Both the position numbers and the translations under genes were made by a program. Positions 5,192-6,833 of a stretch of 64,000 bases of DNA are shown here, piece by piece (within the stretch, counting starts at the first letter, position 1; each line of letters begins with the position of its first letter). The notes under the pieces were generated by a model. That model was given only the letters and a program-made list of their open reading frames with translations. It did no database searches and had not been told where the DNA came from. The DNA comes from an uncultured Chryseobacterium sp. (GTDB taxonomy: Bacteria > Bacteroidota > Bacteroidia > Flavobacteriales > Weeksellaceae). The stretch covers positions 1 through 64,000 of the forward strand of contig CAJYWD010000045.1 in the NCBI GenBank assembly GCA_913778505.1, read 5' to 3'.

Positions 5192-5215
5192 AAAAAAAAC
5201 ACGCCCGAAAGCGTG
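5192..5215 (-). terminator. Intrinsic terminator after pyrB
   Basis: On the minus strand CACGC TTTCGG GCGTG is followed by eight T. It starts 10 bases beyond the pyrB stop and lies before carA, so most pyrB transcripts should end here. Confidence 0.85.
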
Positions 5216-5225
5216 AATCAATATG

Positions 5226-6128
5226 TTATTTTTTGGAGTCGATGAATTCGAATCCTTTGTTTTCCAAATCATATTTAAGGATGGCCATTCTCGCAAAAAC
5301 ACCGTTTTGCATTTGCTTGAAAATTCTCGACCTTTCACATTCAACCAATTCCGAATCAATCTCCACACCTCTGTTGATGGGCGCCGGATGCATAATGATG
5401 GCATTCGGTTTCATCTTTTTTTCTCTTTCTTTGGTCAAACCGAATTTCTTCAAGTAATCTTCCGGTTTGAAATTGAAGTTTCTCTCGTGGCGCTCGTGCT
5501 GGATTCTTAGCAAAATCAAAACATCCACTTCCTTCACCAAATCATCGAACTGCATATAAGTTCCGTTCACCAACATTCCTTCATTGAACCAAAATTCCGG
5601 ACCTGAGAAATATACTTTTGCGCCCAATCTTCTGAATAATCCTGCATCAGAATTCGCAACTCTACTGTGTTTCACATCGCCTACGATTCCGATTTTAAGA
5701 CCTTCAATCTTTCCAAATTCCTGAATGATGGTCAAAGCATCCAGAATGGCCTGAGTCGGATGATGTCCCGTTCCGTCACCTGCATTTACGATACTGAGTT
5801 TAGTATCTTTCAATGCATCATAATAACGCGTTTCCGAATGTCTGATTGCAGCCACTTCCACACCAATGGCTTCCAGAGTTTTCAGCGTATCCAGCATTGT
5901 TTCGCCTTTTGCAATCGAACTTTTATCCGCTTCGAAATCGATGACCTGAAGTCCCAATTTCTTTTCCGCCACTTCAAAACTGGTTTTGGTTCTTGTGCTG
6001 TTCTCAAAAAACAAGTTGGCTACAAAAACATCGCCTTCGATTTTACTGATTTTTCCTTCCGAAAAAGCCTGAGCTTCTTGTAAAATCTTTTCGATACTGT
6101 CTGTAGAAATGCGTGAAAGCTTAATCAT
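5226..6128 (-). CDS. pyrB: Aspartate carbamoyltransferase catalytic chain
   Basis: Condenses carbamoyl phosphate with aspartate, the committed step of pyrimidine synthesis. The 300-residue length is typical of the catalytic chain. The carbamoyl-phosphate loop is FFENSTRTKTSFE (STRT at 44-47), the shared ATCase/OTCase signature; HHPTQAILD and MHPAPINRGVEI are the other active-site segments. No pyrI regulatory-chain gene is visible next to it. The upstream leader (about 120 bases) carries a short ORF and an intrinsic terminator, so expression is probably controlled by attenuation. Confidence 0.96.
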   Translation of the reverse strand: MIKLSRISTDSIEKILQEAQAFSEGKISKIEGDVFVANLFFENSTRTKTSFEVAEKKLGLQVIDFEADKSSIAKGETMLDTLKTLEAIGVEVAAIRHSETRYYDALKDTKLSIVNAGDGTGHHPTQAILDALTIIQEFGKIEGLKIGIVGDVKHSRVANSDAGLFRRLGAKVYFSGPEFWFNEGMLVNGTYMQFDDLVKEVDVLILLRIQHERHERNFNFKPEDYLKKFGLTKEREKKMKPNAIIMHPAPINRGVEIDSELVECERSRIFKQMQNGVFARMAILKYDLENKGFEFIDSKK

Positions 6129-6152
6129 AAATTCAAATTTTTAAATAAAAAA

Positions 6153-6175
6153 AACGAAGCCTAAAAGACTTCGTT
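6153..6175 (-). terminator. Terminator in the pyrB leader (attenuator)
   Basis: On the minus strand AACGAAGTC TTTTA GGCTTCGTT forms a 9-bp stem (one G-T pair) followed by eight T. It lies 25 bases upstream of the pyrB ATG. The neighbouring gene on the other side is divergent, so no gene 3' end exists here for it to terminate; it must act on pyrB's own leader. Confidence 0.85.
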
Positions 6176-6248
6176 AAATATAAAAAATATTGTTGTTGTC
6201 GGCAAACTTGCCAATTATATTTGTCGCTAAATTCTGTACCAGATTCAT
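6174..6248 (-). CDS. Candidate pyrB leader peptide, 24 codons
   Basis: ATG at 6248 opens a 24-codon frame (starts MNLVQNLATN, ends NNNIFYI) whose TAA covers the first two bases of the terminator stem. The last codons are U-rich (ATTTTTTATATT), the layout that in enterobacterial pyrBI couples a paused polymerase to a translating ribosome when UTP is low. The ATG sits only 7 bases past the -7 box, so translation would be nearly leaderless. A chance ORF cannot be excluded. Confidence 0.45.
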   Translation of the reverse strand: MNLVQNLATNIIGKFADNNNIFYI

Positions 6249-6254
6249 TGGCTA

Positions 6255-6262
6255 CAAAGATA
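6255..6262 (-). promoter_or_regulatory. pyrB: Candidate pyrB promoter -7 box
   Basis: TATCTTTG on the minus strand is a perfect match to the Bacteroidetes -7 consensus TAnnTTTG. No good -33 TTTG is present at normal spacing. Initiation here would give a leader of about 120 bases that includes the short ORF and the terminator. Confidence 0.5.
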
Positions 6263-6371: not shown

Positions 6372-6833
6372 ATGGCTCTGGACAAAAAAGACAAACTGAT
6401 ACTTTCGCTTCTACAAGAGGATTCTACACTATCTGTAAAAGAAATTTCCGAAAAAATCGGACTCACTTTCACACCAACTTACGAACGCATCAAAAACCTT
6501 GAAAAACAAGGCGTTGTAGAAAAATACGTTGCCATCCTGAACCGTGAAAAACTTGGCATCAATATCGTGGTGTACTGCAATATCCGTCTGAAAGAGCAAT
6601 CTCAGAAAACCCTCAAAGAATTCGAAGATTATATTTCCAAATACGATGAAGTTCAGGAAATCATCAGTCTTTCAGGGGAATATGACTATATGCTGAAGAT
6701 TCTTGCGAATGACATCAATTCTTATAATACTTTCACAGTAAATATTATTTCCAACGGCCCTAACATTGGACAATATCACAGTTCTATTGTTCTAGCCGAA
6801 GTTAAAAAAACGACTAAGTTTAAGTTGGATTAA
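6372..6833 (+). CDS. Lrp/AsnC-family transcriptional regulator
   Basis: A 153-residue regulator of typical Lrp/AsnC size. Residues ~5-55 form the winged helix-turn-helix (KLILSLLQEDSTLSVKEISEKIG, then FTPTYERIKNLEKQGVVEKY); residues ~65-145 form the RAM/ligand-binding domain with the family's VIISLSGEYDYML-like strand (IISLSGEYDYMLKI). Members sense amino acids. It is divergent from pyrB and convergent with the arg cluster, so control of either is possible, but the sequence does not show which. Confidence 0.92.
   Translation: MALDKKDKLILSLLQEDSTLSVKEISEKIGLTFTPTYERIKNLEKQGVVEKYVAILNREKLGINIVVYCNIRLKEQSQKTLKEFEDYISKYDEVQEIISLSGEYDYMLKILANDINSYNTFTVNIISNGPNIGQYHSSIVLAEVKKTTKFKLD

Follow-up and report, generated by a model that had tools for sequence, protein, structure and literature searches.

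The pyrB leader and its neighbourhood

In the window (the whole 64,000-nucleotide stretch analysed here, from an uncultured Chryseobacterium sp.), pyrB lies on the minus strand behind a leader composed of a -7 promoter box, a short ORF, a hairpin within this ORF and an intrinsic terminator (Table 1). The ATG of the ORF, at 6248, stands 6 bases after the box, and the ORF itself (MNLVQNLATNIIGKFADNNNIFYI) finishes with the codons ATT TTT TAT ATT TAA, the stop codon (6176-6174) sharing two bases with the base of the terminator stem in such a way that its last two bases are the first two of the stem. The stem arms are AACGAAGTC and GGCTTCGTT, with a T run directly after the second, and the A/U-only tract ahead of them includes a U run at 6187-6182. 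A first-pass annotation of this DNA had claimed a -7 box, a 24-codon ORF, a stop codon on the terminator base and U-rich last codons at these positions, and all of them are present.

Table 1. Features of the pyrB leader region in the window.
Feature	Positions	Strand	Basis or remark
-7 promoter box TATCTTTG	6255..6262	-	read in sequence
Leader ORF, 24 codons + TAA	6174..6248	-	start codon predicted ~2 nt from transcript 5' end
Mid-ORF hairpin UUGGCA/UGCCGA, proposed pause hairpin	6199..6214	-	folding z-scores, paired changes, place
A/U-only tract from hairpin to terminator, stop codon included; proposed UTP-sensitive pause region	6174..6191	-	base composition, codon choice
Intrinsic terminator stem-loop	6153..6175	-	T tail on to 6147; stem pairing in relatives
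pyrB, aspartate carbamoyltransferase catalytic chain; regulated gene	5226..6128	-	NF002032.1, 351.7 bits

A box followed closely by an ATG occurs at five sites on the two strands of the window, and only in the pyrB leader does the resulting ORF end on a terminator. By eye, the window has no good -33 TTTG at the usual spacing, while some relatives have one (e.g. L177). The 24 bases between the terminator and pyrB contain no TANNTTTG in the window, and among 23 genera checked such a box was found in this interval at locus L128 only. Reuse of the palindrome ACGAAG..CTTCGT elsewhere in the genome was considered and rejected: it occurs at 3 places, compared with 4 for a reversed control pattern, and at the other two places the stem is not followed by a T run (240 nt viewed).

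A second terminator-like hairpin, CACGCTTTCGGGCGTG with a T run (5200-5215, minus strand), separates pyrB from carA, which lies within 600 nt of pyrB in 37 of 42 named relatives, with a terminator-like hairpin between the two genes in 13 of these 37. On the other side, a divergent gene for an Lrp-family regulator (6372-6833, plus strand) shares the promoter region of pyrB, and a relative is found upstream of pyrB in 30 of the 42 named loci.

Conservation across Weeksellaceae

The leader was compared in 143 pyrB upstream stretches, drawn from the 42 named relatives, further genomes of the family and the window, with some species represented twice, and these were scanned for an ATG 4-9 nt behind a TANNTTTG box. 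Box, near ATG, ORF and terminator are present in 141 of the 143 Weeksellaceae stretches (25 genera and 76 distinct leaders, some species counting twice), and the two misses, L143 and L144, both belong to genus g16. The spacing from box to ATG is 6 nt in 128 of the 141 leaders, 5 nt in 12 and 7 nt in one, and in 126 the stop codon falls within -6 to +2 nt of the stem's first G or C (species duplicates included in both counts). At 12 of the 141 loci the ORF enters or passes the hairpin, remaining open as far as pyrB at 3 of them, and in 3 leaders it stops early, at -9 in one and at -16 in two. Genus g4 (L130, L039), with ~120 nt from terminator to pyrB and an ORF stop 16 nt short of the stem, may have a decaying leader. 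In the stem of the terminator 95.5% of cells are paired over 35 leaders.

The place of the stop codon can be compared with chance by taking one representative per genus. The ORF stops no earlier than -6 nt in 22 of 24 representatives, where dinucleotide shuffles give 5.8, and for 20 of them the stop lies in the interval from -6 nt to the hairpin end, where shuffles give 1.8; the two early stops are at -9 and -16, and the two other frames satisfy these stop-place definitions in 1 and 5 of the 24. Genera share ancestry and the formal probabilities of this test overstate their independence, which leaves a signal that is strong, though less so than the formal numbers. The encoded peptides vary among genera, and it is the start, the openness of the frame, the stop position and the U-tract that stay constant. 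Within two leader types, substitutions in codons 2-12 show no excess at third positions: the variable columns number 7, 4 and 2 at codon positions 1, 2 and 3 among the 17 distinct leaders of the Epilithonimonas type, and 1, 3 and 2 among the 14 of the Chryseobacterium type. Codon positions give no direct sign that the ORF is translated, and their pattern fits a peptide of no importance, in which case translation itself would be what matters.

These features could also belong to a constitutive short RNA, or to a start-proximal terminator that merely lowers pyrB expression, with an ORF that is there by chance. Such an account would agree with the unconserved peptide and the missing codon-position signal, but it is very improbable given that the openness of the ORF and the place of its stop exceed those in shuffles and in other frames, and that the ATG stands 5-7 nt behind the box in all 141 leaders found. 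The first-pass annotation had proposed an attenuation logic of the pyrBI kind, had suggested aligning related genera, and had counted a terminator conserved without its ORF against the idea. In the alignment, ORF, stop place and stem are conserved in 25 genera (g16 lacks this form), the ORF together with the terminator, which supports the proposed logic, with UTP as the presumed signal.

In genus g16 the form with TANNTTTG and ATG is absent from nine stretches (the 2 in the scan above and 7 further ones). In 8 of the 9 genomes (L144, L234-L240) a terminator, CATCTT..AAGATG, lies ~70-100 nt before pyrB, and a TTG-started frame of ~65-90 codons is open from far upstream through this terminator, a post hoc reading, made by eye and with a script, in which the start codon is other than ATG; in L143 no such terminator was seen upstream of pyrB. 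As a lead, the arrangement resembles that of pyrL in Escherichia coli, and g16 may carry a second form of leader within the same family, in which, as in E. coli, the ORF crosses the terminator.

The U-tract and the mid-ORF hairpin

Over 25 genera, positions -15 to -6 consist of 59-70% T, with C or G at most 4%. In the last seven leader codons, Phe is encoded by TTT 26 times and never by TTC (76:92 in nine nearby genes of the window), Tyr by TAT 20 times and by TAC once (61:43 in the same genes), and Ile by ATT, ATC and ATA 23, 3 and 6 times (142:150:22). This preference for synonymous codons ending in U suggests that the nucleotides of the tail, not its residues alone, have been selected.

A leader that couples attenuation to translation might alternatively read ribosome availability or initiation capacity in place of UTP, the A/U tract being an AT-rich spacer. 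The start and the stop are the most fixed elements of the leader, as this would require, and a nearly leaderless ORF could make ribosome loading special; we nevertheless find it unlikely, since it leaves unexplained both the U-ending synonymous codons and the hairpin before the tract, as well as the finding that in the genomes searched the leader model described below matched only upstream of pyrB. An amino-acid attenuator of the trp type, sensing for example arginine, also comes to mind, as pyrB sits in an arg/car cluster and amino-acid operons of Flavobacterium psychrophilum have been proposed to be under leader-peptide attenuation (in part of PMC9723704). Yet Arg is not enriched, making up 3.4% of one part of the ORF and 2.9% of the other compared with 3.2% in nearby genes. 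The tail residues I, N, F and Y are ones that AT-rich codons encode, and a competing antiterminator was not seen. The ORF runs right up to the stem, where an amino-acid attenuator is said to leave more than 20 bp between ORF and terminator (PMC4824070, in an excerpt). Codons, antiterminator and spacing thus all leave amino-acid attenuation unsupported, and we give it very little credence.

The region before the tail folds better than its shuffles, with a mean z of -1.32 over 25 genera, although the signal is weak in most of them (p below 0.05 singly in 3 of 25, and z above 0 in one); the first 44 nt of the leader fold worse than shuffles (+0.56). Single-sequence folding was complemented by pair counts in one register and by a search for the best simple hairpin. 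The three core pairs of the mid-ORF hairpin all show changes on both sides, 68% of cells are paired in one register, and in 22 of 25 genera the best simple hairpin is separated from the first UUU by 7-14 nt (0, 5 and 18 nt in the other three). Folding of the whole alignment with RNAalifold returned 5 terminator pairs only, because the register of the hairpin differs among leaders, and together with the 68% pairing this makes the hairpin less firmly supported than the terminator. Pairing of the 5' arm of the terminator with the upstream leader beyond that of shuffles was not seen (mean z -0.39, with 2 of 25 genera below -2). In E. coli, the pause at pyrL is reported, in an excerpt of PMC9291695, to be independent of NusA and not to be restored by compensatory changes in the stem, so that a role of the mid-ORF hairpin in pausing is a guess.

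Distribution of the leader and origin of pyrB

A covariance model built from 35 leaders, and run under strict filters that lose weak matches, matched 3 of the 395 class genomes searched; each of the three belongs to Weeksellaceae and has a single match, upstream of pyrB. PyrR scored above the family cut-off in none of 100 Weeksellaceae genomes (80 had weak matches only), compared with 6 of 14 control genomes; of 148 genomes sampled across the order, 93 exceeded the cut-off, the 20 Weeksellaceae in this sample contributing none. The first-pass annotation had described the locus as being without pyrI, and PyrI was found in none of 60 genomes of the family. No Rfam family reaches its gathering score in the window, RF00515 included, whereas RF00515 was found in both Bacillus control loci tested (L042, L063); the flavobacterial pyrR loci tested gave no match to it. 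A leader that binds PyrR or some other protein or ligand might account for a hairpin conserved in place upstream of the terminator, but the sequence of this hairpin varies freely, and without PyrR above the cut-off in the 100 family genomes or RF00515 in the window PyrR control is unsupported; a binding leader of either kind seems to us scarcely credible.

In the three loci of other Flavobacteriales that were checked (in genomes G409, G301 and G402) pyrB adjoins pyrR. The PyrB of the window is 53-62% identical to that of Bacilli, which are the closest relatives found outside the family, and among the matches listed it is 38-45% identical to that of other Flavobacteriales; for g16 PyrB, which is separate in the tree, the identity is 50-53%. 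In a tree of 38 PyrB rows, midpoint-rooted and covering Weeksellaceae, Bacilli and Flavobacteriales without other phyla, the Weeksellaceae group with Bacilli and are split from the nine Flavobacteriales rows with 100/100 support. From this pattern of sequence relationships we infer that pyrR-pyrB gave way to a Bacilli-type pyrB, which did not keep its PyrR leader, and the attenuator probably arose in the Weeksellaceae lineage after this displacement. The first-pass annotation had offered two options for such a leader, an independent version or a very old one. An independent origin is now the better supported, because within the class the leader model matches Weeksellaceae only, PyrB is of the Bacilli type and other Flavobacteriales have pyrR beside pyrB, and great age has correspondingly less in its favour; the enterobacterial pyrL peptide differs from the leader peptides here, and the leader model was run on the 395 genomes of the class only.

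Of the 296 family genomes, 33 gave no pyrB match to the query used, among them genera g9, g18, g28 and g29 (family f1), where pyrimidine synthesis may be absent or pyrB very different. The pyrE gene, viewed in 8 genomes, has no attenuator leader, and the stretch from the closest -7 box to pyrE contains no terminator, with two exceptions to the usual layout: L225 has a terminator further upstream and L226 has no box. In L219 (661-2016, minus strand) a UMP-synthase-like fusion of 452 aa joins pyrE to an OMP decarboxylase domain (PF00156 + PF00215), and no attenuator was seen upstream of it.

Proposed mechanism

We propose that the pyrB leader is a UTP-sensitive transcription attenuator that works through the coupling of transcription and translation, a reading which, on the strength of sequence comparison, we regard as likely. 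In F. psychrophilum the -7 box is placed at -12 to -5 (in part of PMC9723704), and when this position is applied here the 5' end of the transcript is predicted ~2 nt upstream of the leader start codon; in that organism 5.5% of mRNAs are leaderless. The ribosome would accordingly load on a nearly leaderless ORF, and RNA polymerase, having passed the mid-ORF hairpin, would enter the A/U-only tract. At low UTP the polymerase would linger in this tract, giving the ribosome time to get to the stop codon at the base of the stem, where it would cover the 5' arm and leave the terminator unfolded, so that pyrB is transcribed. At high UTP the polymerase would be through before the ribosome arrives, and the hairpin would form and end transcription. 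The layout, an ORF of ~75 nt and then the terminator, suits a ribosome that sits at the stop codon and blocks the stem, and does not suit amino-acid attenuation.

A bolder reading, for which we see an even chance, is that UTP attenuation of the pyrBI type has been fully reinvented in another phylum after a horizontally acquired pyrB of the Bacilli type displaced pyrR-pyrB, and that it was built on a leaderless ORF, which would let the two machines, ribosome and polymerase, set off at nearly the same time on an mRNA that has no Shine-Dalgarno sequence, with g16 perhaps representing a second form whose ORF runs through the terminator. If true, repression by UTP-dependent coupling of polymerase and ribosome would have more than one evolutionary origin, and even where Shine-Dalgarno sequences are not used bacteria would couple the two machines tightly enough, within ~75 nt of the start, to regulate a gene. 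The leader would also serve as a short, conserved reporter of coupling in Bacteroidota and would suggest by what means Weeksellaceae regulate pyrimidine synthesis in the absence of PyrR and PyrI. No published description of it was found in the open-licence PMC literature, as judged mostly from listings.

Comparison with known systems

Attenuators of the trpL type likewise combine a leader ORF with a terminator; the pyrB leader differs from them in that it has no run of regulatory codons, no gap between ORF and terminator and no antiterminator that could be seen. The pyr attenuators of Bacillus, controlled by PyrR and recognized by RF00515, are of interest as the nearest PyrB relatives outside the family come from Bacilli, two of which have RF00515 at the loci tested, in contrast to the window, which is without RF00515, and to the 100 family genomes, in which no PyrR exceeds the cut-off.

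The closest likeness is to pyrBI of E. coli with its leader pyrL, where UTP-dependent coupling has been described (in parts of PMC3641672, PMC5021804 and PMC4824070) and where, as here, a short ORF, a U-rich tract and an intrinsic terminator that a ribosome finishing the ORF would block lie upstream of the gene for aspartate carbamoyltransferase (PMC4824070, PMC5021804 and PMC3641672, again in part). As expected of an attenuator of the pyrL type, no competing antiterminator was seen here (mean z -0.39 over the 25 genera). In contrast to the E. coli operon, the locus described here has no pyrI, belongs to another phylum and differs in sequence, and its start codon is predicted ~2 nt from the 5' end, whereas that of pyrL stands behind a Shine-Dalgarno sequence. 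The U-tract adjoins the stem here and lies ~20 nt upstream of the terminator in E. coli, a counterpoint to the proposed mechanism, as the tract may exist for other reasons. The ORF of 24 codons ends on the base of the stem, while that of pyrL has 44 codons and ends 27 nt past the hairpin; an ORF that goes beyond the terminator is absent from the window, occurs at 12 of 141 loci if those entering the hairpin are included, and passes through the terminator in 8 of 9 g16 genomes, and we treat this trait as a variable rather than a defining one of pyrL-type attenuators. Measured alike, pyrL has a hairpin, then 7-10 nt, then TTTTTCTT and then the terminator inside its ORF, and the spacing from hairpin to U-tract is similar in the Weeksellaceae leaders.
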